Assembly (NCBI RefSeq): GCF_007004065.1
Contig: NZ_VFSV01000004.1
Coordinates: 1-64,000 of the forward strand
Reading direction: 5' to 3'
DNA: 64,000 bases
DNA from: Palleronia caenipelagi
GTDB taxonomy: Bacteria; Pseudomonadota; Alphaproteobacteria; Rhodobacterales; Rhodobacteraceae
Made by a program: the position numbers and the translations under genes. Below the pieces are notes generated by a model. That model was not told the origin of the DNA. It worked only from the letters and a program-made list of their open reading frames with translations, and did not search any database. Positions 22,051 to 63,144 of this stretch are shown here, in pieces. Positions within the stretch are counted from its first letter, which is position 1. Each line of letters starts with the position of its first letter.

Positions 22051-22054
22051 CCGG

Positions 22055-25538: not shown

Positions 25539-25610
25539 TCTCCGCTTGATGGCTTGAGGCCGCGTCCACGCCGGGGCAAGCATGGCTCTAGGACAAATGG
25601 AGGGCGCGGC

Positions 25611-43523: not shown

Positions 43524-44634
43524 GATCGGGCTTTATGTTCACTGGCCGTTCTGTCAGGCTAAATGCCCCTATTGCGACTTCAACTCACACGTCGTGGCAC
43601 GTGTGGATCAGAGCCGCTGGGCGCAGGCTCTGGTAACGGAAATTGAACGCTACGGCGCAGCACTACCCGGTGCGCGGGTCAAGACGATCTTTTTTGGCGG
43701 CGGCACCCCCAGCCTGATGCGACCGCAAACGGTCGAGGCCGTGATCGCAGCAGCGCAGAGGGTCTGGACGCTGGCCAACGATGCGGAGATCACGCTCGAA
43801 GCCAACCCAACCTCTGTGGAGGCCGATCGCTTCACGGGATATCGGATCGCCGGGGTGAACCGCGTCTCGCTTGGGGTGCAGGCCTTGAACGACACCGATC
43901 TGAAGCGTTTGGGACGCCTGCATGACAGCAAAGGCGCACTCAGAGCGCTCGAAGTGGCCCGCACTTGCTTCGATCGGGTCAGCTTTGACCTCATCTACGC
44001 GCGACAGTTTCAGACGCTTGAAAACTGGCGATCGGAGTTGAACGAAGCCTTGGGTATGGCTCCCGATCATTTGTCCCTTTATCAACTCACGATTGAACAA
44101 GGCACCGCTTTCGGCGACCGAGCCAACCACGGGCGTCTTCCCGGGCTTCCTGGCGAAGATCTTGCCGCCGATATGTGGGATGTGACGCAGGAGATGACCA
44201 CAAACGCTGGGCTTCCTGCCTATGAAGTCTCCAACCACGCTCAGCCCGGCGCCGAGAGCCGCCACAACCTCATCTACTGGCGTGGTGGAGACTATGTGGG
44301 AATCGGCCCCGGCGCGCACGGGCGCGTTCTGCAAGACGGAACGCGTTTCGCAACCGAGGCTGAGCGCATACCTGCGAAGTGGATTGCCCAGATCGAGTCC
44401 GGCGACGCGCCCGACATTCAAACCGCAATGAAATCCAGTGAAATTCTCGAAGAGCGGATCATGATGGGACTGCGTCTCTCCGAGGGCATCCCAGCCTCTC
44501 TTCTCAAAGATTACTTCAGGAAGTTGAATAGCTTGACTGACTTGGAGCTTGTGGAGGTCACAGAAAATCACGTCCGCGCAACCAGTACCGGACGACCGCT
44601 GCTCAACGCCATTCTTCGCGACATTCTTGTCTAG
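43507..44634 (+). CDS. hemW: HemW, radical SAM heme chaperone (formerly HemN-like)
   Basis: This 375-residue radical SAM protein has three cluster cysteines, Cys16, Cys20 and Cys23 (CQAKCPYC), and the glycine-rich FFGGGTPSLM near residue 61. Lacking the HemN-specific N-terminal extension, it is better called HemW, a heme-binding protein, than a coproporphyrinogen oxidase. RVSLGVQALND and YWRGGDYVGIGPGAHG match the family. It overlaps rdgB by 17 bp and its stop overlaps the convergent parB stop by 4 bp. Confidence 0.93.
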   Translation: MASSTEIGLYVHWPFCQAKCPYCDFNSHVVARVDQSRWAQALVTEIERYGAALPGARVKTIFFGGGTPSLMRPQTVEAVIAAAQRVWTLANDAEITLEANPTSVEADRFTGYRIAGVNRVSLGVQALNDTDLKRLGRLHDSKGALRALEVARTCFDRVSFDLIYARQFQTLENWRSELNEALGMAPDHLSLYQLTIEQGTAFGDRANHGRLPGLPGEDLAADMWDVTQEMTTNAGLPAYEVSNHAQPGAESRHNLIYWRGGDYVGIGPGAHGRVLQDGTRFATEAERIPAKWIAQIESGDAPDIQTAMKSSEILEERIMMGLRLSEGIPASLLKDYFRKLNSLTDLELVEVTENHVRATSTGRPLLNAILRDILV

Positions 44635-45539
44635 GAACGCTCACCTGATAGCAAGCGGCAAAGATCATCCAGCTCAGACAAGTTCGCGTAGGAAATCACC
44701 AACTTGCCGCGCTCTGTCTCGGGAACGTGATCTACCCGGACAGTCAGACCAAGATGCGCAGACAGATCCAACTCCAACGCACGTGTATCTGCGTCTTTTT
44801 CGGTCGGTCGATGCGCAGTTCGACGGGGCTTTGCAGGCTGCTTGCCGGCACGAACCAACTGCTCGGTTTCGCGAACGGACAGGTTCTGTGATACGACCTG
44901 ATGCGCCAATTCGGTCGCGTCATCAGAGGTAATCAAGGCCCTCGCATGGCCTGCGGTCAATTCACCCGATTCAATCTTAGCGAGAACGTCCACTGGCAGC
45001 TTCAGAAGCCTCAGAGAGTTCGCAATATGCGAGCGGCTCTTTCCAAGGGCCTCGGCCAGCTTCTCTTGCGTGTGGCCGAACTGCGACATCAGCTGTCGAT
45101 AGCCATTCGCCTCTTCGATCGGATTGAGATCAGCGCGCTGTATGTTCTCGATGATCGCAACTTCCAGAACCTCTGAGTCCGAAAAATCACGAATGATAGC
45201 AGGAACCTGGTGGAGCGCTGCTCGCTGCGCTGCCCGCCAGCGCCGCTCCCCTGCTACAATCTGGAACCGCTCAGACCGTTCAGGGTGCCGGCGGATTATC
45301 AAAGGCTGGATGATGCCGTGCTGCCGGATAGACGCCGTCAGATCTTCAAGGTCGCTTTCCGTGAAGGATCTCCGGGGCTGCTCCGGGTTCGGCTCAATCA
45401 ACTCGATGGCAATGTCGAGCCTGTCCCCGGAACGACCAGCCGGAGCGACCGCATCCGGTTGTGCTGCTACCGGCTCAAGGTCTGCCATCAGTGCCGACAA
45501 ACCACGTCCCAGTCCGCGCCGTTCCTTTCGTTCAGGCAT
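44631..45539 (-). CDS. parB: ParB, chromosome partitioning parS-binding CTPase
   Basis: This 302-residue protein binds parS and spreads as a CTP-dependent clamp to organise the origin region for segregation. It has an N-terminal basic ERRGLGRGLSALM motif, the arginine-rich/CTP-binding IVAGERRWRAAQRA near residues 93-106, and a helix-turn-helix near 140-175 containing HTQEKLAEALGKSRSHIANSLRLLKLP. The C-terminal dimer segment ends at the stop. It overlaps parA by 8 bp. Three canonical parS sites in the window are its presumed targets. Confidence 0.95.
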   Translation of the reverse strand: MPERKERRGLGRGLSALMADLEPVAAQPDAVAPAGRSGDRLDIAIELIEPNPEQPRRSFTESDLEDLTASIRQHGIIQPLIIRRHPERSERFQIVAGERRWRAAQRAALHQVPAIIRDFSDSEVLEVAIIENIQRADLNPIEEANGYRQLMSQFGHTQEKLAEALGKSRSHIANSLRLLKLPVDVLAKIESGELTAGHARALITSDDATELAHQVVSQNLSVRETEQLVRAGKQPAKPRRTAHRPTEKDADTRALELDLSAHLGLTVRVDHVPETERGKLVISYANLSELDDLCRLLSGERS

Positions 45540-46347
45540 GAACCCCTCCCGTCACATTGTTACGCTCAAGAAACTCGTGGACCAGTCGCATATAGGCCAC
45601 GCTTCCCTTCGAAGAGGGATCATACTGGTGAATGGTCTGAGCGTGAGACGGCGCTTCGCTGATCCGCACGTTTCTGGGGATGATCGTATTATATACGAGA
45701 TCTCCAAGTGTCTCGCGTGCATCGTTCATGACAGCTTGCGCCAGCCGGTTCCGACCATCGTACATGGTCAAAAGGACACCTTCGATGGCGAGATCCGGGT
45801 TCGCGGTCTGCCGGATTTCCCGGATGGTCATCATCAGCTGCGAGAGACCCTCGAGCGCAAAGAACTCACTTTGCAACGGTACCAGAACGGCATCAGCGGC
45901 GACCATCGCGTTCACCGTCAAAAGAGACAGAGACGGCGGGCAGTCGATGAGGATGAAATCGAGACCCTGCTCGCGGGTCGAGCTGTGCGCCAAAATGTTG
46001 TCCAGCAAAGAGGCCCGGCGCGACCTGGAGTGGAGCTCAAGATCTGCGGAACTCAGATCCGCTGTTGACGGAACAACATAGAGATTTTCGATCTCCGTGC
46101 TCACCATGGTATCAGCGAGCGTTTTGCCCTCTAAAAGCAAGTCGTATGTGGTCAGAACACGCTGGTCCGGCTCGACCCCCAAGCCCGTGGAAGCATTGCC
46201 CTGAGGATCCAGATCAATCACCAAGGTTTTATGGCCTTTGAGCGCCAGACCAGCGCCCAAATTGATAGCTGTCGTCGTTTTGCCCACGCCACCTTTTTGG
46301 TTGGCGATGGCAACAATACGTGGGGCTGATTTATCGTGCTGAGACAC
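45532..46347 (-). CDS. parA: ParA, chromosome partitioning ATPase
   Basis: This 271-residue Walker-type ATPase moves ParB-parS complexes during origin segregation. The deviant Walker A is ANQKGGVGKTT near residues 14-24, and DLDPQGNASTGLG, FILIDCPPSLSLLTVNA and GVLLTMYDGRNRL follow. I chose the GTG at 46347 over a TTG at 46389 because it fits the family N-terminus. It overlaps the rsmG stop by 17 bp and the parB start by 8 bp. Confidence 0.94.
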   Translation of the reverse strand: MSQHDKSAPRIVAIANQKGGVGKTTTAINLGAGLALKGHKTLVIDLDPQGNASTGLGVEPDQRVLTTYDLLLEGKTLADTMVSTEIENLYVVPSTADLSSADLELHSRSRRASLLDNILAHSSTREQGLDFILIDCPPSLSLLTVNAMVAADAVLVPLQSEFFALEGLSQLMMTIREIRQTANPDLAIEGVLLTMYDGRNRLAQAVMNDARETLGDLVYNTIIPRNVRISEAPSHAQTIHQYDPSSKGSVAYMRLVHEFLERNNVTGGVHA

Positions 46348-46924
46348 GCTGAACTCTCTGAAGGTCAAGGATGACAGATCCCTTTTCAATGGCTGAAGGG
46401 ATCAGGTCAATGTGGAAAGACCAGTCTTTTCGGGCAATTCTTATTTCCTCTTCGTGACGGACCCCCTTGGGAAATAGATAGCGCGTCGTCGCCATTCCGT
46501 GCCGTGATGCCAGCCCGAGAAGATCTGTCAATGGCGCCAAGGCTCTGGCAGACACCACCGGGGCGGCCTGGGGCTCTACGTTCTCAATCCGATCCGATAG
46601 TACGCGTGCATTCAGCGACAAGGTGCGACAGGCGTGACGCAGAAATGTCGCCTTTCTGAGATCTGATTCGATAAGTGTGACGGATATTTCTGGACGAGCG
46701 ATGGCCACAACGACACCGGGAAATCCGCCACCGCTACCGATATCGCACCAGGCGGAGACGTCTTCAGCCGGAATCAAAGATACTTGCAGTGAGTCCTCTA
46801 CATGACGAGCCCAGAGGTCGGCTAGAGTGGATCTTGCGACAAGGTTTATCCGCGGGTTCCACTGTCTGACAAGATCCGCAAATTCTTCGAGCCGCTCCTG
46901 TGTTTCACGTGAAACATGTGTCAT
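46331..46924 (-). CDS. rsmG: RsmG (GidB), 16S rRNA m7G527 methyltransferase
   Basis: This 197-residue SAM-dependent enzyme methylates G527 of 16S rRNA; loss of it can give low-level streptomycin resistance. Motifs are [13 protein letters not shown] near residue 22, [19 protein letters not shown] near 65-83 and VSARALAPL near 127. Codons 3-8 (HVSRET) are formed by a parS site. It overlaps mnmG by 4 bp and parA by 17 bp, continuing the origin-proximal operon. Confidence 0.95.
46901..46916. promoter_or_regulatory. parS centromere site inside the rsmG start region
   Basis: TGTTTCACGTGAAACA, a perfect 16 bp palindrome equal to the canonical parS sequence. It encodes residues 3-8 of RsmG, so the site constrains both DNA and protein. 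It lies about 1.4 kb from parB and 5.2 kb from the candidate origin. Confidence 0.95.
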
Positions 46925-48789
46925 GCTCGTAGTCTGATCTCACGGCTTCGTAGAGCAAGAAGAATTGCGTTCAAAGCCGCTGGCGTTACACCCTCAACCT
47001 TTCGAGCAGACGCAATCGATGTCGGCTGGGCCTTGCGCAATTTCTCTTTCAGTTCAGCAGACAATCCATGGATCGCAGCGAAATCCAAATCCCGAGGAAT
47101 TTCAGTCGTTTCTTCGGACCGAAGACGATCAACATCGCGTTGCTGACGCTCCAGATACTTGGCATAGATCGCTTCGCGGTGCAGCTGTGCGAGGACATCT
47201 GCTGGCAAATCACTGGCGCCCTCGACCAATTCACACACCTGACCGATCTCGACCTTTGGCAATCCGAGAAGTTCAAGCCCCGTCCGCTTACTTCCATCAA
47301 GCGCCAACTCAATCCCAACGGACCGGGCTTCTTTGCTTGAGTAGGTGTCGCGACCCAGCACCCGCCGCCCCTCATCCAACGACCGCAACTTTGCTTCGAA
47401 GGCCGAATGACGTTCCGCAGTGACAACGCCGAGATCGACACCAATCGGCGTCAAACGCTGATCCGCATTGTCCGCTCTCAGCGACAGCCGGAACTCCGCG
47501 CGCGACGTGAACATCCGATAAGGCTCCGTCACTCCGCGATGAATCAGATCGTCGATCAGCACGCCAATATAAGAATTTGATCGCGAGAATATCTCCATCG
47601 GCTCGTCTCTCGCAGAGCAGACGGCAAACATTGCTGCGACAAGGCCTTGCGCTGCAGCCTCTTCGTATCCCGTCGTCCCATTGATCTGACCGGCTAGCCA
47701 CAAGCCTGGAAGCGCCTTGAGTTGCAAGGTTGCATCAAGGGCGCGCGGATCAACATAGTCATACTCAATCGCATAGCCTGGCTGCACAATTTCAGCCCGC
47801 TCCAATCCAGCAATAGATCTCACGTAATCAAGCTGGACTTCAGCAGACAGCGACGTTGAAATTCCGTTAGGATACACCGTGTTGTCGTTAAGTCCTTCAG
47901 GCTCAAGAAAAACCTGATGGGAATCCTTGTCGGCAAACCTCGATATTTTGTCTTCAATCGACGGGCAATAACGCGGCCCAGAACCTGTGATGTTCCCGGA
48001 ATACATCGCAGACTCGGCGAGGTTTGCACGGATGATCTCGTGGGTTTTCGAATTCGTATGCGTGATCCCGCAGTGGATTTGCCGCGCAGCCGGTGCCTTA
48101 CTGAGAAAAGAGAGCATCACGGGTTCGGAGTCGCCCGGTTGGGATTCTAAACTATCCCAGTCGATGCTATCTTTCCGCAGACGTGGCGGCGTTCCTGTCT
48201 TGAGGCGCCCCATCGGAAGACCCAAGGACCGCAGGCGCTTCGCCAAAGCCGACGACGCGTCCTCGCCCATACGGCCACCACTTCGCATCTCGCGGCCGAT
48301 GTGAATGACTCCTCCCAGGAAGGTCCCTGTGGTCAAAACAACCGCATCGGCGCTCAGATCGCCATGCTGCGTCGTCACCACCCCAACAACGCGCCCATCC
48401 TGGACGCAAAGATCGACGACTTGATCCTCGATCACCTCAATCCCATGCGCGGCCACAGCCGCCTGCACAGCAGCACGATAGAGGGCTCGGTCCATCTGCG
48501 CGCGAGGACCTTGAACAGCAGGGCCTTTTGAACGGTTCAAGAGACGGTAGTGAATCCCGGCAGCATCCGCTGCCCGCCCCATGATACCATCCAGCGCATC
48601 GACCTCGCGGACCAGATGTCCCTTGCCGAGACCGCCAATCGCCGGATTGCAGGACATCGCGCCGATTGCTGCCTTATTCAAGGTTACCAACGACACGTCG
48701 GCGCCCATTCGGGCGGCAGCACCCGCCGCCTCCACGCCCGCGTGACCTCCTCCGACAACGATAATCTTTGTGTGTTTCACGTGAAACAT
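46921..48789 (-). CDS. mnmG: MnmG (GidA), tRNA wobble-uridine modification FAD enzyme
   Basis: This 622-residue enzyme, with MnmE, adds the carboxymethylaminomethyl group to U34 of several tRNAs. The FAD-binding [19 protein letters not shown] is near residues 11-29. [28 protein letters not shown] and [11 protein letters not shown] follow (as separate segments), and the C-terminal helical domain is complete. I chose the ATG at 48789; codons 1-6 (MFHVKH) are built on a parS site. The start is 1 bp past the mnmE stop. Confidence 0.96.
48773..48788. promoter_or_regulatory. parS centromere site overlapping the mnmG start codon
   Basis: TGTTTCACGTGAAACA, a perfect 16 bp parS palindrome. It covers all but the first base of the mnmG ATG and codons 2-6, giving the MFHVKH N-terminus. 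It lies about 3.2 kb from the candidate origin. Confidence 0.95.
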
Positions 48790-48790
48790 C

Positions 48791-50053
48791 CTACTTACCG
48801 ATACAGAATCGCGAGAAAATACTGTCCAACAGATCTTCCACGTCCACGTCACCGACGATCTCTGACAACGCTTGCGAAGCTTGCCGGATCTCCAAAGCGA
48901 TCAGCTCCGGGACCTCTTCACGCCTAATCATTTCAAGCGATTCCAGCAAGCCATTCAGCGCGCCCTCCATTGCCGCGACATGGCGGTCTCGTATCAAAAG
49001 ATGCTGCTGTGGGACCCGTTCCAGTAATGTGTCCGCGATCCAATCCAAAAGGCTTGTAACCCCAGCCCCCGTTGCACCAGACACCCCTCCCTGCTGACCG
49101 TTGTCATCCTTCGCAACAATCACCCGATCCACCTCCGGAACAAGGTCGTCGGATCCGGTGCTCAACCAAATACGCAGGTTCGCCCGCTCGGCACGCGCGA
49201 CCGCCAGATCAATGCCAGCAGCCTCCAACGGATCGCTGGTTTCCCGAAGGCCCGCTGTATCAAGGAATGTAACGGGCAGCCCGTTCAAGTCGACGCGGAG
49301 TTCGATTACATCCCGCGTAGTTCCGGCGATATCGGACGTCAGAGCCACATTTCGACGGGCAATCGCGTTCAGTAGGGTCGATTTTCCTGCATTCGGCGGC
49401 CCCATAATCGCAACCTCGAAGCCATCCCGGATTCGTTCCGCCGCATCGCTTCCACGCAACTCCGTCTTAAGATCTGCCACAACTGCACCCAACAAGCGCT
49501 CAACGTCGGGCACCACGTCCATGGGGACGTCTTCATCGGCAAAGTCGATTGTCGCCTCGAGCAACGCTGCGGCATCAACAAGCGCGCGCCGCCACCCGTC
49601 CACACGTTTCGACAACGCCCCAGACAAGACCTCTTGCGCTTGTTGCCGCTGAAACTCTGTCTCCGCGTCAATCAGATCAGCAAGCGCCTCCACCTGAACA
49701 AGATCGAGGCAACCATTCTCCAATGCACGCCGAGTAAATTCCCCAGGGTCCGCCAGCCTCAGATCCTGGGCCAGTTCGCGGAGAATCGCCTGAATGACCG
49801 CTTGAGATCCGTGAACCTGGAATTCAACGACATCTTCCCCGGTAAAGCTCGCCCCTTTCTCGAAGACCAGCACCAGAGCGGTATCCAGGAGGTCTCCATC
49901 CTTGCTGCGGATTTTCCGCAAAGCCGCCTGTCGCGCCATGGGCAAAGACCCACACATGGCGCCCGCAACATCGAAGGACCGAGGGCCGGTTAACCGGATT
50001 ACAGCAACACCCGCCTTACCTGGCGCCGTTGCCAGGGCATAGATCGTGTCCAT
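48791..50053 (-). CDS. mnmE: MnmE (TrmE), tRNA-modification GTPase
   Basis: This 420-residue GTPase partners MnmG in tRNA U34 modification. It has an N-terminal tetrahydrofolate-binding domain, and a G domain with [15 protein letters not shown] near residue 220, [14 protein letters not shown] and FLDTAGLRE. It ends in the catalytic C-terminal FCIGK. I chose the ATG at 50053 ([13 protein letters not shown]) over one 9 nt upstream because families start here. It lies between rho and mnmG in a leftward operon. Confidence 0.95.
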
Positions 50054-50068
50054 GGCGGGCAAGCCTCT

Positions 50069-51340
50069 TTAGGTATTCATTGAGTCGAAGAATTCCTGGT
50101 TCGTCTTGGTCTGCTTCAGTTTCCCGATCAGGAATTCGATGGCATCCGTCGTGCCCATCGGGTTCAAAATCCGACGCAACACATAGGTTTTCTGAAGATC
50201 CGGTTTGGAGACCAGCAAATCTTCCTTCCGGGTGCCTGATTTGAGGATGTCCATGGCCGGGTAGACGCGCTTATCCGCAACCTTGCGATCCAAAACAATC
50301 TCGCTGTTACCCGTCCCTTTGAACTCCTCGAAAATCACCTCGTCCATCCGGCTGCCGGTATCAATCAGTGCTGTGGCGATGATGGTCAGGGATCCACCTT
50401 CTTCGATGTTCCGGGCCGCGCCAAAGAAGCGCTTCGGGCGTTGCAACGCGTTGGCATCCACACCACCGGTGAGAACCTTGCCCGAGGACGGCACAGTTGT
50501 GTTGAAGGCACGGCCAAGTCTTGTGATCGAGTCGAGCAAGATCACAACATCTCGCTTGTGTTCGACCAAACGCTTGGCCTTCTCAATCACCATATCGCTC
50601 ACAGCAACGTGCCGGGAGGCGGGCTCGTCAAAGGTGGAGGAAACAACCTCGCCCTTTACTGAGCGCTGCATATCCGTGACTTCTTCGGGGCGTTCATCGA
50701 TCAACAGGACGATCAGGTAGCACTCTGGATGGTTCCGCTCGATGCTATGGGCAATGTTTTGCAGCAAAACCGTCTTACCCGTCCGCGGCGGCGCAACGAT
50801 CAGGGAGCGTTGCCCTTTGCCGATCGGCGCCACGAGGTCGATTATCCGGGCCGAACGGTCCTTCAGCGTCGGATCGTCGATTTCCATGTTTAACCGCTCA
50901 TCAGGGTAAAGCGGCGTCAGGTTATCGAATGCCACTTTATGACGCGCTTTGGACGGCTCTTCAAAGTTGATGCTCTCAACCTCTATCAGCGCGAAATAGC
51001 GCTCGTTCTCATCAGGACCACGGATCACCCCAGAGACCGTATCCCCCGTGCGCAAAGCATAGCGGCGGATCATCTCAGGGCTGACATAGATGTCATCCGG
51101 ACCCGGAAGGTAGTTTGCCTCGGGCGACCGCAGGAACCCGAATCCGTCCTGAAGCACTTCCAGAACCCCGTCCCCGCCAATGATCCAGTCATCATCAGCA
51201 CGCTCTTTGAGGATCGAGAACATCATCTCGCCCTTGCGCATCGTCGATGCGTTTTCAATCTCCAGTTCTTCGGCCAGTGCCAAAAGATCTTTGGGGCTCT
51301 GAGCTTTGAGGTCAGACAGGTTCAGGCGATCATCGCTCAT
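50069..51340 (-). CDS. rho: Transcription termination factor Rho
   Basis: This 423-residue hexameric RNA helicase ends transcription at Rho-dependent sites. The N-terminal Rho domain carries [22 protein letters not shown] near 56-77 (RNA-binding cold-shock fold). Walker A is [12 protein letters not shown] near 180, Walker B is [16 protein letters not shown], and the Q/R loop segments are intact. It is 15 bp upstream of mnmE. The 115 bp gap to hemJ probably holds its promoter; Rho genes are often autoregulated. Confidence 0.97.
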
Positions 51341-51455
51341 GGGAGATCCTCAATGCCGGATCAACCGGCCGCAATCGATGGTGATGTCATAAAACGGGAA
51401 GACGCCCACCGGACGGTGAGCAGCGCCAGTTAGCCTTACGTGCTCAGGATGTCAA

Positions 51456-51905
51456 TCAAAACGGCTTTGCAACAACCGAGATGACAATGACCACGAGGAG
51501 CAACGTCGGAAATTCGTTCCACATCCGATACGCGCGCCCACTTTTGTTATATTCACCGGCAGCAAGCTTCTTCCGTTCTGTCGCACACCACATGTGAAAC
51601 CAGGTCATAGCAATCACAGCGATGGCTTTCACCCAGGGCCAAACCGAAAGCCAGTTCACGGCCCCTGTCCCGATCAGCAAAAGACCGAACAGCCACGTTG
51701 AGATCATCGCCGGGTTCATGATCGCCTTGAGCAACCTCCGCTCCATGACCTGAAAGATGTCCTCCGTGGCAGGATTACCTTTAGCGCGCTCGACATGGTA
51801 CACAAACAACCGAGGTAAGTAGAACAACCCTGCCATCCACGACACGAAGGACAGGATGTGCAGAACTTTGATCCAGACATAGGACGAAGCGAGTAAATCG
51901 GTCAT
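51456..51905 (-). CDS. hemJ: HemJ, protoporphyrinogen IX oxidase
   Basis: This 149-residue membrane protein converts protoporphyrinogen IX to protoporphyrin IX in heme synthesis. Four hydrophobic segments are visible, with conserved His near residue 16 (VLHILSFVSWMAGLFYLPRLFVYH) and a C-terminal RAYRMWNEFPTLLLV segment typical of HemJ. It is the last leftward gene before the candidate origin. In many relatives hemE and hemH lie between hemJ and the origin; neither is present here. Confidence 0.92.
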   Translation of the reverse strand: MTDLLASSYVWIKVLHILSFVSWMAGLFYLPRLFVYHVERAKGNPATEDIFQVMERRLLKAIMNPAMISTWLFGLLLIGTGAVNWLSVWPWVKAIAVIAMTWFHMWCATERKKLAAGEYNKSGRAYRMWNEFPTLLLVVIVISVVAKPF

Positions 51906-52282
51906 GAGGTCTTCTACTCATAAAAATAGATAAGAAGAAAGATTGGGTTTGTAGTGGAACTGTGGACACTGTGGAAAGGTGTAAAATCGTCGAAATCTTC
52001 GTGGGTTTATCCACGTGGAAAACATTAGATCGAAGACAAATCCAGAACACACGATAAAATTATATTTTTCAATGACCTAGCAGGAGATTAACTGGCTCAA
52101 ACTTCTTGGAAAAGCCTGTGGAGAATTTCTCATCGCACAGTTGCTCTTCTTTTCCGTCCGAAGAGTCCTCCGCAGGGAGAGAAATTATCTTGATCTCCGA
52201 TTCCTGCTCTGGAAAAGCTGTCAACTCCAAAAAGGCTAAAAACCGTTCACGTCTTCCCCGGACTTCTCCACAAGGTGTCCCC
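51906..52282. other. Candidate chromosomal replication origin (oriC)
   Basis: A 377 bp gap separates divergent hemJ and maf. It is much more AT-rich than its surroundings, with an especially AT-rich patch at about 52046-52072 (GATAAAATTATATTTTTC). DnaA-box-like 9-mers with one mismatch to TTATCCACA lie at 52007-52015 (TTATCCACG), 52117-52125 (TTCTCCACA on the minus strand) and 52264-52272 (TTCTCCACA). Weaker boxes lie in 51960-51976. All genes to the left read leftward as far as parB; maf to dnaQ read rightward. The parABS and rho-mnmEG-rsmG neighbours fit the alphaproteobacterial origin region. Identification is inference. Confidence 0.55.
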
Positions 52283-52873
52283 ATGATCCTCCTCGCCTCT
52301 TCCTCAGAGACACGACGTCAGTTGCTTCGGAATGCAGGGATTGAGGTCACGTCCGAGTCGCCGCGCGTGGATGAAGACGCGATCAAGGATGCGCTAGTCG
52401 CGGACGGGGTGAAACCTCGCGACATCGCTGATGCGCTCGCGGAAGCCAAAGCCCGGAAAGTCGCGTTGCGTCACCCCGAGGCGTTCGTACTTGGCTGTGA
52501 TCAGGTCCTGGCGCTGGACGACAAGATTTTATCCAAGCCGCGGGACCAGTCAGAGGCGTGTGACCAGCTCCTGCATCTGTCCGGACGGTCGCATCGGCTG
52601 CTGTCGGCAAGCGTCGTTTACGAAGACGCACGCCCCGTCTGGAGGCACGTGGGGGAAGTGAGGCTTGAGATGCGGCCGCTCAGTACAGCCTATGTCGAGG
52701 AGTACGTGGCCCGGAATTGGGACACGATCCGCCATTCTGTTGGCGGATATCGTTTGGAGGAAGAAGGAGCCCGCCTCTTTACGCGTATCGAGGGTGACTA
52801 CTTCACTGTGTTGGGCCTGCCGCTGCTTCCGCTCTTGTCGTGGCTGATTGACCGGGGCTATCTGGACTCATGA
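52283..52873 (+). CDS. maf: Maf/YhdE-family nucleotide pyrophosphatase
   Basis: This 196-residue Maf-family protein hydrolyses non-canonical or canonical NTPs to monophosphates and is linked to septum control. It has the N-terminal LASSSETRRQLLRNAGI, VLGCDQVL near residue 72 and YRLEEEGARLF near 152. I chose the ATG at 52283; the frame stays open upstream through the AT-rich origin region, but that part has no Maf character. It overlaps aroE by 4 bp and is the first rightward gene after the candidate origin. Confidence 0.92.
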   Translation: MILLASSSETRRQLLRNAGIEVTSESPRVDEDAIKDALVADGVKPRDIADALAEAKARKVALRHPEAFVLGCDQVLALDDKILSKPRDQSEACDQLLHLSGRSHRLLSASVVYEDARPVWRHVGEVRLEMRPLSTAYVEEYVARNWDTIRHSVGGYRLEEEGARLFTRIEGDYFTVLGLPLLPLLSWLIDRGYLDS

Positions 52874-53703
52874 CGACGTCTATTCCACTTGCTGCCGTTC
52901 TTGGTGATCCGATCGCCCATTCCAGATCACCTGCCCTCCATGGTCACTGGTTGGCGAAATACGGGGTAAAAGGACATTATGTGCCGATCTGCGTGTCTCA
53001 GGCCGATCTGGCGGAATTTCTGGAGATGATGCCTCGCATGGGCTTTGTGGGATGCAACGTCACCGTTCCACATAAGGAAGCGGTCATTGATCTGTCTCAC
53101 AGCGTGTCGGATCGCGCTGCTTTGATTGGGGCCGCAAATACTCTGGTCTTCCGCGAGGACGGCACTATTCACGCAGATAATACAGATGGTTATGGGTTTA
53201 TCGAGAACCTCCGGCAGAATGCTCCGGACTGGGTTCCGACCGATGGTCCCGTAGCTGTTCTGGGTGCCGGAGGCGCTGCGCGGGCGGTTCTTGTCTCTTT
53301 GCTTGATGCGGGTGCGACGGAGATCCGGCTGGCCAATCGAACGCGGTCCCGCGCCGAGGCGCTTCGTCGGGAATTCGGCTCACGGATCATTGTCCATGAC
53401 TGGGTGCAGGCAGGCGCCATGTTGTCCGGTGCGGCAACTCTGGTGAATACGACGACACAGGGGATGGTTGGTAAGTCCGTTCTGAACATCCCGCTGGACA
53501 AGCTGCCGTCGAATGCTCTGGTTACGGACCTCGTCTATAACCCGTTGGAAACAGACCTTCTGTATCGGGCGCGGCAAAAGGGCTGCCGGACCGTGGATGG
53601 TTTGGGCATGCTTCTTCACCAGGCGGTTCCGGGATTTGAGCGCTGGTTTGGGGTACGGCCTGATGTGGATGACGCGCTCAGGGATGCGGTTCTGGCCGGA
53701 TGA
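52870..53703 (+). CDS. aroE: AroE, shikimate dehydrogenase
   Basis: This 277-residue enzyme reduces 3-dehydroshikimate to shikimate with NADPH in aromatic amino-acid synthesis. Motifs are LGDPIAHSRSPALHG near residue 10, GCNVTVPHKEAVIDL near 58 (catalytic Lys), the NADP-binding VLGAGGAARAVLVSLLDAG near 131 and NRTRSRAEAL. It overlaps maf and coaE by 4 bp each, part of the conserved maf-aroE-coaE-dnaQ unit. Confidence 0.95.
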   Translation: MTTSIPLAAVLGDPIAHSRSPALHGHWLAKYGVKGHYVPICVSQADLAEFLEMMPRMGFVGCNVTVPHKEAVIDLSHSVSDRAALIGAANTLVFREDGTIHADNTDGYGFIENLRQNAPDWVPTDGPVAVLGAGGAARAVLVSLLDAGATEIRLANRTRSRAEALRREFGSRIIVHDWVQAGAMLSGAATLVNTTTQGMVGKSVLNIPLDKLPSNALVTDLVYNPLETDLLYRARQKGCRTVDGLGMLLHQAVPGFERWFGVRPDVDDALRDAVLAG

Positions 53704-54293
53704 CCCGACCTTTTGTCATTGGTTTGACGGGTTCTGTCGGTATGGGGAAGTCGACGACAGCCGGGATGTTCCGGGAGTGCGGCGTCCCTGTGTGGGATGC
53801 AGATCAGGCGGTTCATGCTCTGTATAGGCCCGAATGCGCGGGATCCCGAGCGATTTCCGCACTCTACCCTGAAGCGGTTGGACCCGACGGAGTGGACCGG
53901 GCAGCGTTGTCTGCGTGGATTGACCAAGATGCCGGCGCGCTTTCGCGGATCGAGGAGGTAATCCACCCATTGGTGGCTGCAAACCGGCAGGCGTTTCTGG
54001 ATGATGCGACTGAACCCATTGTTTTGCTGGATATCCCTCTGTTGTTCGAGACCGGTGCGGATCGGCTTGCGGATCTGACGGTGGTTGTCTCCGCTCCGTC
54101 TGAGGTTCAGCGCGCCAGAGTCCTGGAGAGACCGGGAATGACTGAGGAAAAACTCGATTACATTCTGTCCCGCCAGATGCCGGATGCAGAAAAGCGGAAA
54201 CGGGCGGATCGGGTTATCCCAACCGTCAACCTTGATAAAACGCGGGCAGAGGTGGAGCGGCTGGTGTCGGAGTTGAGAGCGAACCATGCGTGA
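53700..54293 (+). CDS. coaE: CoaE, dephospho-CoA kinase
   Basis: This 197-residue kinase does the last step of coenzyme A synthesis. The N-terminal P-loop is LTGSVGMGKST at residues 9-19, with DADQAVHALY near 34, DIPLLFETG near 117 and RQMPDAEKRKRADRVI near the C-terminus. It overlaps aroE by 4 bp and dnaQ by 8 bp. Confidence 0.95.
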   Translation: MTRPFVIGLTGSVGMGKSTTAGMFRECGVPVWDADQAVHALYRPECAGSRAISALYPEAVGPDGVDRAALSAWIDQDAGALSRIEEVIHPLVAANRQAFLDDATEPIVLLDIPLLFETGADRLADLTVVVSAPSEVQRARVLERPGMTEEKLDYILSRQMPDAEKRKRADRVIPTVNLDKTRAEVERLVSELRANHA

Positions 54294-57500: not shown

Positions 57501-57516
57501 CGTTTCACGTGAAACG
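57501..57516. promoter_or_regulatory. parS centromere site downstream of smr
   Basis: CGTTTCACGTGAAACG: the perfect 14 bp parS core with C/G instead of T/A at the ends. It begins one base after the smr stop codon and lies about 5.2 kb right of the candidate origin, outside coding sequence. Confidence 0.93.
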
Positions 57517-57803
57517 TTGACCCAACTTGCCTGACTTTTGGGGCGATAATGTGCGCCCTCAGCGCCCCTCTCCAACGTACGGAGGTGCTTTCTTGAACTC
57601 TGATGGCGCTTTGTCCAAGAGATCAGCTCCTGATTTGACTGCAAACCTAATGAAACTCCACGCTCTATCCGAGCATCGGAGCGATGTTCTCGCGTGCGAT
57701 ATCTCTTGGTGACAATGGACAGGCGATCGTATGCTTCCGGCATTCGGTCCTCGATCCAGGTGGTGAACTCGGGAGTGGACCGCGCGGCAGGGAGGCAGCC
57801 GAC
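57517..57803. other. Intergenic region ahead of the hydroxyproline genes
   Basis: A 287 bp gap. I see no gene. It probably carries the promoter of the hydroxyproline operon (a TATGCT hexamer at 57730-57735 could be a -10 element, with a poor -35). A GGGAGG ribosome site at 57790-57795 sets the start of the next gene. Confidence 0.45.
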
Positions 57804-58763
57804 ATGCAAAAGACCATATTCACGGGCACGATGCCGGCGCTGATGACCCCTTGCACTGCAGACAGGACGCCCGATTTCGACGCTTTGGTGCGCAAGGGCC
57901 GTGAAATGATCGAGGCAGGTATGTCGGCCGTGGTCTATTGCGGCTCCATGGGAGATTGGCCGCTCCTCACCGATGCCGAGCGCATGGAAGGGGTTGCGCG
58001 GCTGGTAGCGGCTGATTTGCCCGTCATCGTTGGCACTGGCGCGATCAATTCGCGATCTGCCGTGGTCCATGCTGCCCACGCGCAGGAGGTGGGTGCCGCC
58101 GGGCTCATGGTCATCCCGCGTGTACTGTCGCGTGGATCATCTGCCGCAGCTCAAAAGAACCATTTCAAGGCAATCCTCAGCGCCGCTCCGGACCTTCCGG
58201 CGATCATCTACAACAGCCCGGTCTACGGTTTCGCCACCCGGGCCGAATTATTCTTTGCCCTGCGTGGCGCGCACCCCAACCTCGTGGGCTTCAAGGAATT
58301 TGGTGGGAAGGACGATCTGCGCTATGCGGCCGAGCATATCACTTCGATCAACGACGGTGTCACACTGATGGTCGGGGTGGATACGGAGGTCTATCACGGC
58401 ATCGTGAATTGCGGTGCGACAGGCACAATCACGGGGATCGGAACGGCTCTGCCCCGGGAGGCGCTGCTGTTAACGGCCCTCGCGCGGAAGGCCGCGGACG
58501 GTCACGCCGAGGCCCGGAGGCGCGCATTGGAGCTTTCGGAGGCGCTGGGGGTTTTGGCCAGTTTTGACGAGGGCGCGGATCTGGTCCTCTATTACAAGCA
58601 CCTTTTGGTTTTGAATGGTGAGGAGGAATACCGGCATCATTTCTACGAGACTGATGCCCTGAGTGACGCGCAGCGCGGCTATTGTGAGCAGCAATACGCG
58701 CTCTTTCGTCGCTGGTTCACCGACTGGTCACGGCAAGGCGGGATTGTCGCGGAATGCATGTGA
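57804..58763 (+). CDS. Dihydrodipicolinate-synthase-family protein, probable pyrroline-4-hydroxy-2-carboxylate deaminase
   Basis: This 319-residue aldolase-fold protein has the Schiff-base lysine in VGFKEFGG (about residue 165), a GSMGDWPLLTDAER segment near 49 and IIYNSPVYGF near 135. Members of this family that sit beside hydroxyproline epimerase genes deaminate the cyclic imine product of D-hydroxyproline oxidation to alpha-ketoglutarate semialdehyde. The assignment rests mainly on context: it overlaps the epimerase gene by 10 bp. I chose the ATG at 57804 because it has a good GGGAGG site. Confidence 0.83.
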   Translation: MQKTIFTGTMPALMTPCTADRTPDFDALVRKGREMIEAGMSAVVYCGSMGDWPLLTDAERMEGVARLVAADLPVIVGTGAINSRSAVVHAAHAQEVGAAGLMVIPRVLSRGSSAAAQKNHFKAILSAAPDLPAIIYNSPVYGFATRAELFFALRGAHPNLVGFKEFGGKDDLRYAAEHITSINDGVTLMVGVDTEVYHGIVNCGATGTITGIGTALPREALLLTALARKAADGHAEARRRALELSEALGVLASFDEGADLVLYYKHLLVLNGEEEYRHHFYETDALSDAQRGYCEQQYALFRRWFTDWSRQGGIVAECM

Positions 58764-59692
58764 TCGACAGCCACACCGGAGGCATGCCCACGCGGGTCAT
58801 TCTGGACGGCGGTCCAGATCTGGGCTCCGGGGCTCTGGCCAGCCGGGCGCGACGGCTTGCGCGGGATCACCGCGCGTTCTGTGATGGTGTCTTGCGGGCT
58901 CCGCGCGGGCAACCGGGTATGGTCGGGGCGCTGCTCCTGCCGCCAGATGACCCGGATTGCGCCACAGGTGTTATCTATTTTGACGCTGGAGCGGTGCTTG
59001 GCATGTGTGGCCACGGCACCATCGGGCTGGGCGTCAGTCTGTCATTTCTGGGCCGGCTCAGTCCCGGCGCAATTCGTGTCGAGACACCGGTGGGCGTGAT
59101 CCCCCTGACGCTTCTCGATAGAAACACCGTCCAATTGACCAATGTCGAAAGCTATCGGCTGCGCCAGAGCGTTCCGCTCGATGTGCCGGTATACGGTCGC
59201 ATGACGGGTGATCTGGCCTATGGTGGCAACTGGTTTTTCATTGTCGATCCGAGTCCTGTTCCCGTTCAGCCATCGAATATTCGCGTGCTGAACGATCTGG
59301 CTCTTGCCATTCGCGATGCGTGCGAGTCAGCAGGGATTACGGGCGCGTCGGGGGCAAAACTGGATCACGTTGTCTTGCAGTGTCAGTCAGATGATCCAAC
59401 CGTTCACGGGCGGAACTTCGTCCTGTGTCCCGATGATGAGTACGACCGCTCCCCCTGCGGCACGGGCAGTTCGGCGCGGCTGGCCTGTCTGGCCGCTGAC
59501 GGGCGATTGGCTCCGGGTGAGGAGATCGTGCAGGAAAGCGTCATCGGCAGTCGCTACCGCCTTTCTTATCAGCCGGGTCCGATGGGTGGCATCTTACCCA
59601 CCCTGACCGGCAGCGCGCATGTCATGGCCGAGGGTCGTCTGATCTTTGAGCCGGGTGACCCGTTTCGAGAAGGCATCCGCTATGCGTCCTGA
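58754..59692 (+). CDS. 4-hydroxyproline 2-epimerase (proline racemase family)
   Basis: This 312-residue proline racemase-family enzyme has both catalytic cysteines in place, AVLGMCGHGTIGLGV near residue 84 and SPCGTGSSARLAC near 236. This two-cysteine pattern is expected of epimerases and racemases rather than of the dehydratase branch, which has one changed. It should turn trans-4-hydroxy-L-proline into cis-4-hydroxy-D-proline. It overlaps the genes on both sides (10 and 11 bp), forming a single translation unit. Confidence 0.88.
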   Translation: MHVIDSHTGGMPTRVILDGGPDLGSGALASRARRLARDHRAFCDGVLRAPRGQPGMVGALLLPPDDPDCATGVIYFDAGAVLGMCGHGTIGLGVSLSFLGRLSPGAIRVETPVGVIPLTLLDRNTVQLTNVESYRLRQSVPLDVPVYGRMTGDLAYGGNWFFIVDPSPVPVQPSNIRVLNDLALAIRDACESAGITGASGAKLDHVVLQCQSDDPTVHGRNFVLCPDDEYDRSPCGTGSSARLACLAADGRLAPGEEIVQESVIGSRYRLSYQPGPMGGILPTLTGSAHVMAEGRLIFEPGDPFREGIRYAS

Positions 59693-60926
59693 AGCCAATA
59701 TCGTGGTCCTCGGTGCCGGGATCATTGGCATCAGCACTGCGCTCGAATTGCAAAAGCGCGGTTTCGCCGTTCTGGTCATTGATCGCGATCCGGTGGGTAT
59801 CGGCACCTCCTCTGGCAATGCGGGAGGCTTCGCGTTCAGCGATATCGAGCCGTTGGCTACCCCCGGCATCATCCGTAAAGCTCCGAAATGGCTGCTGGAT
59901 CCGTTGGGGCCTTTGTCGATCCCGCCGCGCTATGCTTTTCGAATAGCGCCATGGATGATGCGGTTCTGGCGTGCAAGCTGGCGTGATCGCAGCGCGGCTT
60001 CGGCCGTGGCGCAAGCGGCCCTCATGGCACATAGTCGCGCGGCTCTGGAGCGACAGATTTCTGATGTTGAGGGCGAGGATCTGATTGAGCGACAGGGGCA
60101 ACTCAACCTTTATGAGGGGGCAGCCGCATTCCGTCGCAGCAAACCGCTTTGGGAGGCGCGAGAGGCTCATGGCATCCCTTTCGCGCATCTTACCAGCCCT
60201 GAGGCGATTGCGGAGATCCAGCCCGGCCTCGACAGCCGTTTCACCCATGCCGCGTTCTCGCCCACATGGATGAACACGGTCGACCCCCGCCGCTGGCTGT
60301 GCCGTCTGGCGCACCGGTTTGAGGCGCGTGGGGGACAGATCATGCGCGGTGAGGTCCAGACGATCACTCCGATATCTTCGGGCATCCGTTTGATCGTTTC
60401 GGAGGGCGCTGTCGAAGCGTCCCGCGTGATCATTTCCGCCGGGGCGTGGTCCCATCATCTTGCACGACAGCTTGGCCACAGGATCCCGCTTGAGACGGAG
60501 CGTGGCTACAACACGACCCTGCCTGCGGGCGCGTTTGACTTGCGGACGTTCCTGACCTTTGGCGCCCATGGGTTCGTTGTTTCGCCGATCAATGGGGGCA
60601 TTCGAGTGGGTGGCGCGGTAGAGCTGGGCGGGCTCGATCTGCCTCCGAATTACCGCCGCGCTGAAATGCTTCTGACCAAGGCTCGAAGCTTCCTGCCGGG
60701 GTTGAAGACCGAGGGCGGGACTCAGTGGATGGGGTATCGTCCGTCGCTCCCGGACAGCCTCCCGGTGATCGACCGTGCACCCGGTCTCCCGCAGGTCATT
60801 TACGCCTTTGGTCACGGTCACCTGGGCCTGACCCAGTCCGCAGGGACCGCGGAGCTGGTGGCTGATCTGGTGATGGAGCAAACACCCGCGATTAATCTGA
60901 CTCCTCTTGCCGCGACCCGCTTCTAG
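59682..60926 (+). CDS. FAD-dependent D-amino acid (D-hydroxyproline) dehydrogenase
   Basis: This 414-residue FAD oxidoreductase of the DadA/HypDH type has an N-terminal IVVLGAGIIGISTALELQKRG nucleotide-binding strand (residues 7-27), GIGTSSGNAGG and a C-terminal GHGHLGLTQSAGTAELVADL region. With the epimerase and deaminase upstream, its likely substrate is cis-4-hydroxy-D-proline. I chose the ATG at 59682, 11 bp inside the epimerase gene. No semialdehyde dehydrogenase or transporter follows; an IS-rich scar begins instead. Confidence 0.87.
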   Translation: MRPEANIVVLGAGIIGISTALELQKRGFAVLVIDRDPVGIGTSSGNAGGFAFSDIEPLATPGIIRKAPKWLLDPLGPLSIPPRYAFRIAPWMMRFWRASWRDRSAASAVAQAALMAHSRAALERQISDVEGEDLIERQGQLNLYEGAAAFRRSKPLWEAREAHGIPFAHLTSPEAIAEIQPGLDSRFTHAAFSPTWMNTVDPRRWLCRLAHRFEARGGQIMRGEVQTITPISSGIRLIVSEGAVEASRVIISAGAWSHHLARQLGHRIPLETERGYNTTLPAGAFDLRTFLTFGAHGFVVSPINGGIRVGGAVELGGLDLPPNYRRAEMLLTKARSFLPGLKTEGGTQWMGYRPSLPDSLPVIDRAPGLPQVIYAFGHGHLGLTQSAGTAELVADLVMEQTPAINLTPLAATRF

Positions 60927-60944
60927 CCTCTGACCGTGCTAATT

Positions 60945-60978
60945 CATCGGTGGCCTCTCAAAACAGAGGACACCGATG
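60945..60978 (+). terminator. Long hairpin after the hydroxyproline operon
   Basis: The arms CATCGGTG-G-CCTCT and AGAGG-A-CACCGATG pair over 13 bp with one mismatch and a 6 nt loop, 18 nt after the stop. No T-run follows, so it may be a weak terminator or an end-protecting structure. Confidence 0.5.
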
Positions 60979-61117
60979 GTCCGGGCGTACTGATCGTCGG
61001 CGTGCAGGACTTCGTGTTGAATACACCCCCTGAGCAGGAGCACAGCATCCCCCAGTGCCATCTCTACGGTGAGCGTCCGTTGAACCCGACCTATCGCGTT
61101 TCGATTACGGAGGCTAA

Positions 61118-61141
61118 GTGTCCACGATCTCTAGTGGACAC
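61118..61141. repeat. Perfect inverted repeat upstream of the IS66-type remnant
   Basis: GTGTCCAC and GTGGACAC pair perfectly around an 8 nt loop, 13 nt before the remnant ATG at 61155. It may be part of the leader of the truncated element. Confidence 0.5.
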
Positions 61142-61154
61142 GATGAGGCACTCT

Positions 61155-61200
61155 ATGAGCAGGCGGAAGAAGCTATTTTGGGCCGACGAGGAGAAGCGGG
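61155..61200 (+). pseudogene. Truncated IS66-type accessory protein (TnpA) N-terminus
   Basis: The frame from ATG 61155 reads MSRRKKLFWADEEKR, which matches the typical N-terminus of IS66-family orf1 proteins. It is cut after 15 codons by the left end of the IS6-family element. The rest of the IS66 element is not in the window. Length is too short for certainty; the family call rests on this start motif alone. Confidence 0.55.
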
Positions 61201-62014
61201 GATGTTGTCACGTTAACAGTTGCAGGTTTGCGAACTTGCCGAGATCGGCATGGTCGGCCCAGATGTCGACATCGCTTATCAGCTACAAACGCCACCGCTT
61301 TCCGCCCGAAATCATCGCCCACGCGGTCTGGCTCTACGTCCGTTTCAATCTGAGCCTGCGCGAAGTCGAGGAGATGCTGCTCGAGCGCGGGATCGACGTC
61401 TCATACGAGACCGTCCGACGCTGGATGGTGAAGTTTGGTCCCGGCATCGCCCGAAATTTTCGCCGCCGCCAGGCGCACCCGGGCGACTTTTGGCATCTGG
61501 ACGAAGTCCGTGTGGAGATCTCGGGTCGTGTGTTCTGGCTCTGGCGCGCTGTGGATCAGGATGGGATGGTTCTGGACGAGATCTTGCAATCCAGACGTGA
61601 CAAACGGGCGGCGAAACGGCTTCTGAAGTCGCTGATCAAGCGCTACGGAAATCCCCGGCGGATCGCGACGGACAAATTGAGATCGTACGGCGCGGCGAAA
61701 CGCGAGGTGGCGCCCGGTCGCAAGCACCGGTCCCACAAAGGTCTGAACAATCGTGCCGAAAACAGCCATTTGCCGTTCCGCAAGCGAGAGCGATGCATGC
61801 AGGGATTCCGATCTCCGGGAGGCTTGCAACGATATGTGTCCTGCCACTCAGCCGTACGCAGCCGCTTCTCCGCTCCCGCCCGCCGCCGTTCCGCAGTTCA
61901 GATCAGATACCACCGCCTGGAAGCCTTCGACGCGTGGAAGGTCGCTGCGAGCATCGCTAGAACGGCGAACACAATCGCCTTCATGCGGCTCGCCACACTT
62001 AATGTGACAACACC
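61201..62014 (+). mobile_element. IS6-family insertion sequence, 814 bp
   Basis: The element is bounded by imperfect terminal inverted repeats: GATGTTGTCACGTTAA at 61201-61216, and GGTGTTGTCACATTAA read on the minus strand at 62014-61999 (14 of 16 match). It encodes one DDE transposase and has normal IS6 size. The flanking 8-mers (GAAGCGGG left, GCCGCAGC right) do not match, so there is no target-site duplication. The left flank is an IS66-type remnant and the right flank an IS1182-like fragment, which suggests IS6-mediated cointegration or deletion. Confidence 0.82.
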
Positions 62015-62060
62015 GCCGCAGCAGTTCGCTCTGCCGGAAGCGCCCGTGTCGGTTCTTTGA
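61263..62060 (+). CDS. IS6-family transposase
   Basis: This 265-residue DDE transposase has first Asp in FWHLDEVRVE (about residue 80), second Asp in IATDKLRSYG (about 138) and Glu in NNRAENSHLPFRKRERCMQGF (about 172, the K/R-rich tail typical of the family). The start is ATG 61263. The frame has no stop inside the element: it runs through the right inverted repeat and ends 46 bp beyond it, adding about 15 foreign residues. It is probably still active but is marked by this oddity. Confidence 0.85.
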   Translation: MSTSLISYKRHRFPPEIIAHAVWLYVRFNLSLREVEEMLLERGIDVSYETVRRWMVKFGPGIARNFRRRQAHPGDFWHLDEVRVEISGRVFWLWRAVDQDGMVLDEILQSRRDKRAAKRLLKSLIKRYGNPRRIATDKLRSYGAAKREVAPGRKHRSHKGLNNRAENSHLPFRKRERCMQGFRSPGGLQRYVSCHSAVRSRFSAPARRRSAVQIRYHRLEAFDAWKVAASIARTANTIAFMRLATLNVTTPPQQFALPEAPVSVL

Positions 62061-62381
62061 GAACGTAGAATGGTCGGGGATCTTGTCCGAAAGATCGAGG
62101 CGGCAGAACCACCGGTACGCGAGGTTCAGATGGACCTCCTCGCACAGCCTGCGCTCGGAGCGGATCCCGAAGCAGTACCCCACCAAAAGCATCCGGATCA
62201 GTAGCTCAGGATCAACGGAAGGGCGGCCAGTTTGGCTATAGAAATCGGCGAGATGGGACCGGAGACCGCTCAGGTCGACGAACCGGTCAATCGATCTCAG
62301 CAGATGGTTCTGAGGGACGTGATCTTCCAGTGAGACCTCGTAGAACAGCGCCAGCTGCGCTTCCTGCCTCGGTCCCATCAT
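62015..62381 (-). pseudogene. Truncated IS1182-like transposase (N-terminal fragment)
   Basis: The minus-strand frame begins at ATG 62381 (MMGPRQEAQLALFYEVSLED) and shows the typical IS1182/IS5-group N-terminus: DHVPQNHLLRSIDRFVDLS, GRPSVDPELLIRMLLVGYCFGIRSERRLCEEVHLN (in segments) and DHSTFSKNRHGRFRQSELLR. It is then cut by the right end of the IS6 element after about 122 residues. The catalytic C-terminal part is missing from this window. Confidence 0.8.
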
Positions 62382-62428
62382 CGCTGATCCTCCCGCTCTA
62401 CAACAGAAGTGAATCAGCGAACGACACC

Positions 62429-63144
62429 TCAATCAAGCAAGAGTTTTTCAACAAAATACGCCAACTGCTGATATTGGTCGATTTCGCCCATCATCGCCCG
62501 AATGCCCGTCTCAGCATTTTCCAGACCGCCATCGGCCACGGTGGCAGTGACCTCGGCGACAATCGCTTCCTGTCGCGCCCAGGTCTCTGCGGTCAGGCGA
62601 TCCGCTATGAACCCGGAGCAAAGGAACGCCAGCGGAATTCCGAGCGCCAGAAAAGCCCCGTACACCCCGAGGCTGCGGGGCACGCCGCCGAGTGGCCTCT
62701 CCCGACCGCTCGCCAGCACCGCGGCCCAGACGAGGCTGGCCCCGCGACCAAGGCGAACCCCACCGCGGCCAGCGGTCCCATGGCGACCGCCAGCACGCCC
62801 GAGACCAGCATCACCGCGAACACGACGCCCGCGATCCGCTCGATGGTGTCGTCGATGGGCTCCAGCACTTTCAGCGGTTGCGCCGATCCCTGCCCCACCA
62901 CCGACACCCCGACCTCGACCTCCTGCGCTGAGGAGAGGAAGGCGTTGAGCGTCCGAAGGGTGACGTATGTCGCGGAGGCCCCGATCGAGATGCGCGTTGC
63001 ATAATCCACCGCCCGGGTGGTGCTGGGCAGGGTCCGGGACGCGAACGCCGCCCCGATGGACAGGGCGGCGATCACGATCAGTGCGATGAGTCCGGCTTTG
63101 CGGCGGTCAGCCGTCGGCGCGGATGGTCGCGTTTTTGGGGTCAT
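62429..63144 (-). pseudogene. Frameshifted membrane protein of unknown function
   Basis: Two minus-strand frames join into one membrane protein. The first runs from ATG 63144 with hydrophobic segments (AGLIALIVIAALSIGAAFAS and AGVVFAVMLVSGVLAVAMGPL). The second ends at 62429 with another TM segment and a helical tail. The switch falls at the C4 run 62741-62744; one extra base there restores a continuous reading (VAGASLVWAAVLASG). The 3' end may also be altered by the adjacent IS1182-like insertion. No family recognised. The gene start overlaps the neighbouring oxidoreductase end by 38 bp. Confidence 0.65.

Follow-up and report, generated by a model that had tools for sequence, protein, structure and literature searches.

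We identified a 377 bp intergenic gap between the genes hemJ and maf that is very probably the DnaA-dependent origin of replication (oriC) of the main chromosome of a Palleronia-like member of the Rhodobacteraceae. The window analyzed here comprises bases 1–64000 (64 kb) of a 174,822-bp contig, which is part of a draft assembly of 192 contigs (4.02 Mb), and the gap begins next to the hemJ start (51905, minus strand) and ends at the ATG of maf (52283, plus strand) (Table 1). An origin at this place had been proposed in the initial annotation of the window, and the proposal is supported by a cluster of DnaA boxes, the GC-skew minimum of the contig, a conserved core and a fixed gene order in relatives, among which Palleronia marisminoris is the closest named organism by HemJ (72% identity).

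Composition, DnaA boxes and neighboring genes

The gap had been described as AT-rich and flanked by divergent genes, and both features were borne out: its GC content is 43.0%, compared to 61.8% for the window. Only 15 of 6363 windows (377 bp, 10-bp step) were as AT-rich or more, all of which start at 51751–51911 and overlap the gap; the lowest-GC window starts at 51864 (41.1% GC). Such AT-richness within the 64-kb window is what would be expected of the unwinding region of a DnaA-type oriC. The longest ORF of maf, from a TTG at 52106, would cross part of the origin. A search of positions 50000–54000 against Rfam detected no family at the gathering threshold. Two broad GC dips were observed in the window, one at 45–53 kb, which contains the origin genes, and one at 20001–26000 (~0.55, around a hybrid histidine kinase gene).

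A second hallmark of DnaA-type origins, clustering of DnaA boxes above chance, was evident both from shuffled sequences and from a contig-wide matrix scan. Using TTATCCACA as the reference and counting 9-mers at ≤1 and ≤2 mismatches, we found three boxes with one mismatch and four with two mismatches in the gap, and no exact box anywhere in the window; the three one-mismatch 9-mers and two weaker ones reported initially were a correct, slightly low count. Dinucleotide shuffles of the gap contained on average 0.08 (≤1 mismatch) and 1.07 (≤2 mismatches) boxes, and none of 5000 reached three or seven; for single-base shuffles, the means were 0.11 and 1.26, and the fraction reaching seven was 0.0002. 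Because near-boxes are only slightly in excess across the whole window (41 vs 31 by chance), it is their clustering that counts. When the 174,822-bp contig was scanned with a matrix of 13 positions, trained on other genera (250 boxes, 83 gaps), the best 377-bp window started at 51951 with a score of 82.2 (runner-up, 37.7). In 106 gaps of relatives (copies and two from this genome included), there were on average 2.96 boxes at ≤1 mismatch vs 0.08 in shuffles, and only three gaps lacked them. In addition, 95 of 103 gaps had a box with ≤2 mismatches no more than 60 nt away from the start of maf, compared to 15.6 in shuffles.

With rho, mnmE, mnmG, rsmG, parA and parB on one side and aroE, coaE, dnaQ and secB on the other, the gap occupies the syntenic place of alphaproteobacterial origins (rho-mnmEG-rsmG-parAB and maf-aroE-coaE-dnaQ). 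UPF0093 (HemJ), Maf, AroE, Rho, ParA, ParB and CoaE were confirmed by Pfam; the names rsmG, mnmG, mnmE, dnaQ, secB and hemW were presumptively assigned from the sequences and gene order. Scanning with the parS reference TGTTTCACGTGAAACA, for which 0.10 matches are expected, yielded two perfect sites and one that has two mismatches but is still a perfect palindrome. All three are within 5.2 kb of the gap, in agreement with the three parS sites within about 6 kb noted earlier, and a fourth parS-like site with three mismatches is located at 38399.

Several other features of the window were observed. Directly past the parS-like site at 57501, genes of the DHDPS and proline-racemase families and FAD-dependent (DAO) genes form a cluster (Pfam, 57684–60926), which is perhaps involved in hydroxyproline breakdown. 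An IS240-type transposase ORF (60936–62060), located ~9 kb away from the origin, faces an ORF with a DUF772 transposase domain (61848–62432), and this pair (60936–62432) represents the remains of an insertion sequence. At a distance of 20 kb (27078–32038), a DNA polymerase III alpha chain gene is located beside an ImpB/MucB-type gene; the two are perhaps an error-prone repair cassette.

Table 1. Features of the candidate origin and its surroundings (positions in the 64,000-nt window)
Feature	Position	Strand	Evidence or remarks
parB and parA	44631..46389	-	Pfam ParB_N, HTH_ParB, AAA_31
parS, perfect	46901..46916	+	TGTTTCACGTGAAACA scan; 5.0 kb from gap
parS, perfect	48773..48788	+	TGTTTCACGTGAAACA scan; 3.1 kb from gap
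hemJ (UPF0093)	51456..51905	-	Pfam PF03653, E=3.9e-58
Probable oriC, intergenic between divergent hemJ and maf	51906..52282	.	AT-richness, top DnaA-box cluster, GC-skew minimum
AT-rich tract beside hemJ, likely unwinding region	51920..51944	.	84% AT over 25 nt; role suggested by adjoining core
Conserved core: A-rich tract, degenerate segment, first box, part of second	51923..51975	+	Model R1 and anchor comparison
DnaA-like box GTGTCCACA, 2 mismatches, first of tandem pair	51961..51969	-	Box scan
DnaA-like box CTTTCCACA, 2 mismatches, second of tandem pair	51970..51978	-	Box scan
DnaA-like box TTATCCACG, 1 mismatch	52007..52015	+	Box scan
DnaA-like box TTTTCCACG, 2 mismatches, near-palindrome overlapping 52007 box	52014..52022	-	Box scan
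IHF-like site TTTCAATGACCTA, 2 mismatches to WATCAANNNNTTR	52067..52079	+	Site where relatives match better; weak here
DnaA-like box TTCTCCACA, 1 mismatch	52117..52125	-	Box scan
Weak DnaA-like box TTTTCCAGA, 2 mismatches	52208..52216	-	Box scan
maf-proximal DnaA-like box TTCTCCACA, 1 mismatch	52264..52272	+	Box scan
maf, ATG start 52283	52283..52873	+	Pfam PF02545, E=6.3e-45
parS-like, 2 mismatches, still perfect palindrome	57501..57516	+	TGTTTCACGTGAAACA scan; 5.2 kb from gap

GC skew and the position of dnaA

A GC-skew minimum had been suggested as a test of the proposed origin. We computed the cumulative skew of the 174,822-bp contig, which is 4% of the genome (the skew of this 192-contig draft was read on the contig scale), and found its minimum at 52305, within the beginning of maf. 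On the contig carrying dnaA, a stretch of 20 kb had a local skew minimum ~0.65 kb before the DnaA domain, so that an origin at dnaA would be compatible with the skew of this genome alone. If the origin were at dnaA, the gap would merely be a DnaA-regulated promoter region of hemJ and maf, a reading that we consider very unlikely. The location of dnaA at 316–467 of the contig in three of four relatives searched also points in its direction, though such a location is a deposit convention. For example, the records of two relatives, G016 and G008, start at dnaA, and a record start should not be equated with the origin because dnaA is 82 and 150 kb, respectively, from hemJ in these genomes (216 kb in a third relative, G026). 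Besides dnaA, 15 scattered DnaA-family matches were detected in G026, 14 of them near-equal in score, which may belong, as a helper gene, to a repeated insertion sequence.

The distribution of boxes speaks against an origin at dnaA: with the same matrix, the top cluster in the 20 kb around dnaA of this genome scored 23.0 vs 82.2 in the gap, and box clusters persist in genomes where hemJ or maf has been replaced. It is also at odds with the skew of the two relatives. G016 belongs to the same family and consists of a single contig of 3.56 Mb, from which we took 20-kb stretches, 14 of them at 250-kb steps and a fifteenth ending at hemJ. The eight stretches from 1.75 Mb to hemJ had negative skew and the six from 0.25 to 1.5 Mb positive skew, with −0.006 in the dnaA stretch. 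A local sum from 3.40 Mb round to 0.10 Mb, with the contig taken as circular and 1257 end bases omitted, had its minimum on the rho side at 3,475,899, separated by 1.1 kb from hemJ and by 1.6 kb from the gap; dnaA, at 316 and 81.6 kb from hemJ, is 83 kb away from this minimum. In G008, a near-complete genome of the same genus, the skew was summed from 3.0 Mb round to 0.02 Mb, and the minimum was found at 3,180,618, 81 kb off hemJ, in an uneven trough of ~3.09–3.18 Mb. Skew was positive in the stretches flanking dnaA on both sides, and sampled skew over the remainder was noisy. The skew in relatives is mixed, in that G016 backs the gap sharply and G008 roughly.

A conserved core and a middle site in the gap

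The commonest 9-mers in 95 distinct gaps were CTGTGGATA (45), TGTGGATAA (44), ATCCACAGG (43) and AAGATGATG (40). On the hemJ side, the aligned gaps contained an A-rich tract, GATGATG, GTAGG, GCC, TGTGGATAA and often a second box. GATGATG was present within the first 150 nt of 65 of the 95 gaps, compared to 0 in the remainders of the gaps and 0.8 in shuffles. The core of the window retains GTAG (at 51951), the A-rich tract and the tandem boxes.

In relatives, this hemJ-side core resembles a DnaA-trio unwinding element. The published search rule for such elements requires that a DnaA box have three or more NAN triplets, on the right strand, within 16 bp (PMC8287927). The rule was satisfied in 70 of the 95 distinct gaps (74%) vs 11% of shuffles and 41% on the opposite strand, and part of the signal thus comes from composition and boxes. 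The window's own gap fails the rule: its longest NAN run is 2 (at the 52117 box) and only 1 at the tandem pair, whereas 16.5% of 2000 shuffles of this gap reached a run of three. TAGTAG was considered as a strict trio signature and dropped (11 of 95 gaps vs 2.9 in shuffles), and the case for trios in relatives is therefore based on the less strict NAN rule. Compared with the DnaA-trio system (PMC8287927), many gaps of relatives have the same layout (boxes, a short GC-rich spacer and an A-centered trinucleotide array on the expected strand); they differ in that the repeat of this family is more often GAT-GAT than TAG-TAG and in that the copy of the window falls below the three-triplet rule.

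A 70-nt, sequence-only model of the core (R1) was built from rows outside the genus set: of 59 anchored rows, 49 were used, and ten (eight near-copies and two seemingly misplaced ones) were removed before alignment. When this genome was searched at E≤10, with 150 of 370 first-look candidates scored, R1 had a single match, which is the core listed in Table 1 (E=1.37, weak; E=0.037 on the contig alone); at E≤1 and with stricter filters, it had no match in this genome. The E-value is weak, and it is the location of this match that carries the weight. At E≤1, and with match positions and origin loci compared by eye, R1 matched in the origin gap of 12 of 13 same-genus genomes (as the second match in G008; no match in G012) and of 16 of 22 other same-family genomes, at least five of these 16 being in the training set. 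The six other same-family genomes either had no match (G015, G027, G030 and G031) or had a single match, located elsewhere (G021 and G033). In G015, G021 and G033, we could not place the origin, and around the match in G033 a distant relative of aroE was the only origin gene found.

We also searched 18 origin loci of different arrangements (349 kb) and detected ten matches at E≤1, none of them outside the origin gap; they came from both Paracoccus, G022, G014, G028, G017, G024, G044, G050 and L065 (E=0.54). The eight loci without a match were G030, G027, G031, G012, G036, G047, G049 and G051. R1 was rejected as a class-wide origin finder: in only three of 24 genomes from other families did its match adjoin hemE or ppsR (G044, E=0.058; G050, E=0.55; G054, E=0.004), and the others had no match or matches elsewhere.

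Another conserved element was observed near the middle of the gap. The exact IHF consensus WATCAANNNNTTR occurred 16 times in 95 gaps, all at 40–50% of gap length (1.7 expected overall), and of 103 matches with ≤1 mismatch, 63 were in this interval (34.8 expected in all), related sequences entering these counts several times. In the window, an AT tract immediately precedes the IHF-like site at 52067, and IHF binding there would be a guess. The CtrA patterns TTAA-N7-TTAA and TTAACCAT were absent from the gap; in the 95 gaps, they occurred 5 times vs 1.1 in shuffles and 0 times vs 1.7, respectively. Neither CcrM GANTC sites (125 vs 147 shuffled) nor GcrA-type sites (19 vs 17 shuffled) were enriched in these gaps.

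Neighbors of the probable origin in relatives

Of 248 loci encoding a relative, the best 80, all of them named, were fetched with HemJ, as were 30 more, one of which was the window's own; with three added from this genome (two DnaA-family loci and one window copy), 113 loci were available, some species being represented twice. hemJ and maf were divergent in 106 of these loci, with a gap of 359–451 bp in 103 and 1.2–1.4 kb in three; the remaining seven comprised two Paracoccus, two loci where hemE is at the origin, one contig edge and the DnaA-family pair. A short hemJ–maf gap was thus present in 101 of 109 loci of relatives (own copies excluded, species copies included), a count that is favored by fetching with HemJ and has hemJ-less loci outside its reach. 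In genomes chosen independently of hemJ, the arrangement occurred in all 13 of the same genus and in 13 of 22 others of the same family. The initial annotation was right that the proposed origin adjoins hemJ and neither hemE nor ppsR, but there is nothing unusual in this position, since hemJ-gap-maf is the commonest arrangement among the relatives fetched.

Six arrangements were seen in 39 rows: hemJ-ori-maf (24, window included), hemE-ori-ppsR (seven, i.e., six from other families and G017), hemJ-ori-ppsR (G014 and G028), hemE-ori-maf (L065 and G030), hemJ-ori-aroE (two Paracoccus) and rho-ori-maf (G022 and G024). In the latter two genomes (L185 and L186), the origin abuts rho without hemJ, and only weak HemJ-like matches (26–27% identity) were detected genome-wide. 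The core of G030 is unsupported because R1 had no match and a single box with one mismatch was present in the stretch read. Among the 35 same-genus and same-family relatives, some of which are incomplete, ppsR was present in G014, G017 and G028, and the other 32 gave no match. A FastTree phylogeny of seven joined proteins from hand-picked rows required at least seven changes of arrangement (theoretical minimum, five). It was rooted with the six other-family rows, all of which carry hemE and ppsR, and thus an ancestral hemE-ppsR state depends on this rooting; the tree leaves the order of early losses undecided, and movement of the flanking genes is as possible as loss. Intermediates without hemE, ppsR, maf or hemJ at the origin appear mostly to keep the core. 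The relatives suggest an origin that kept its place, with the genes around it being lost or relocated one at a time.

The same arrangements bear on the possibility that the gap is a divergent hemJ/maf promoter region with DnaA boxes for transcription control and the origin some tens of kb away, which the divergent genes, the box near the maf start and the distant G008 minimum would fit, but which is extremely unlikely given a core that is recognizable whether its neighbor on one flank is hemE, hemJ or rho and that on the opposite flank ppsR, maf or aroE, and given seven boxes and a skew turn that exceed the needs of a promoter.

An oriC next to maf was reported in 2016 as conserved in Rhodobacteraceae (DoriC predictions; Ketogulonicigenium vulgare; PMC4793288). 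The direct adjacency of oriC and maf is the same here; relative to what we could access of that study, hemJ, the conserved core and the gene-loss intermediates are added (PMC4793288). A similar comparison was possible for the hemE-RP001/COG1806 origin of Caulobacter and Rickettsia, which shares the syntenic place (rho-hemJ and maf-aroE sides), the DnaA boxes and AT-richness with the window but differs in that the window lacks the hemE and ppsR (COG1806) flanks and the CtrA patterns (PMC1914354). In this genome, hemE is on another contig (C2), and no match to ppsR was detected (E≤0.001). According to two further reports, 101 Rhodobacteraceae origins were assigned in 2019 by skew, boxes and parAB proximity, with eight strains omitted (PMC6699656), and the origin region of Rhodobacter sphaeroides was imaged via ParB (PMC6315104). 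Our literature search found no paper pairing hemJ with oriC, and marker-frequency mapping of a chromosome origin in Rhodobacteraceae did not come to our notice. What is new is in the details, namely a conserved core that appears to have decayed here, the middle site at its fixed place and the intermediate arrangements, and the supplements of one study (PMC8287927) may already list trio elements.

For an origin in the gap, we propose that DnaA would fill the boxes and, from the tandem pair, spread into the AT-rich tract towards hemJ and open it. This opening may be likened to that by the DnaA-trio element of Bacillus subtilis, although the regular trio array of many relatives is unrecognizable here. 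IHF or a similar bender in mid-gap would join the maf-side boxes to the core; helicase loading would follow, and forks would depart in both directions. ParB bound at the three nearby parS sites (≤5.2 kb) would then separate the new origins, and hemJ and maf would be bystanders. A more far-reaching reading, which we offer tentatively and regard as somewhat doubtful, is that the alphaproteobacterial origin might be a self-contained unit (a trio-like core, an IHF pivot at a fixed place and maf-side boxes) that was kept in place, each of the four neighboring genes having been lost or relocated independently, and whose trio array might have decayed in this Palleronia-like organism below the published rule, such that opening would depend on the AT tract and the tandem boxes instead of a regular trio array.

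The likely origin is fixed in a draft genome by these results, and the series of flanks provides a case of an origin outliving its neighbors. The conserved core is a short testable target for origin opening in Rhodobacteraceae, including in a species that fails the trio rule.
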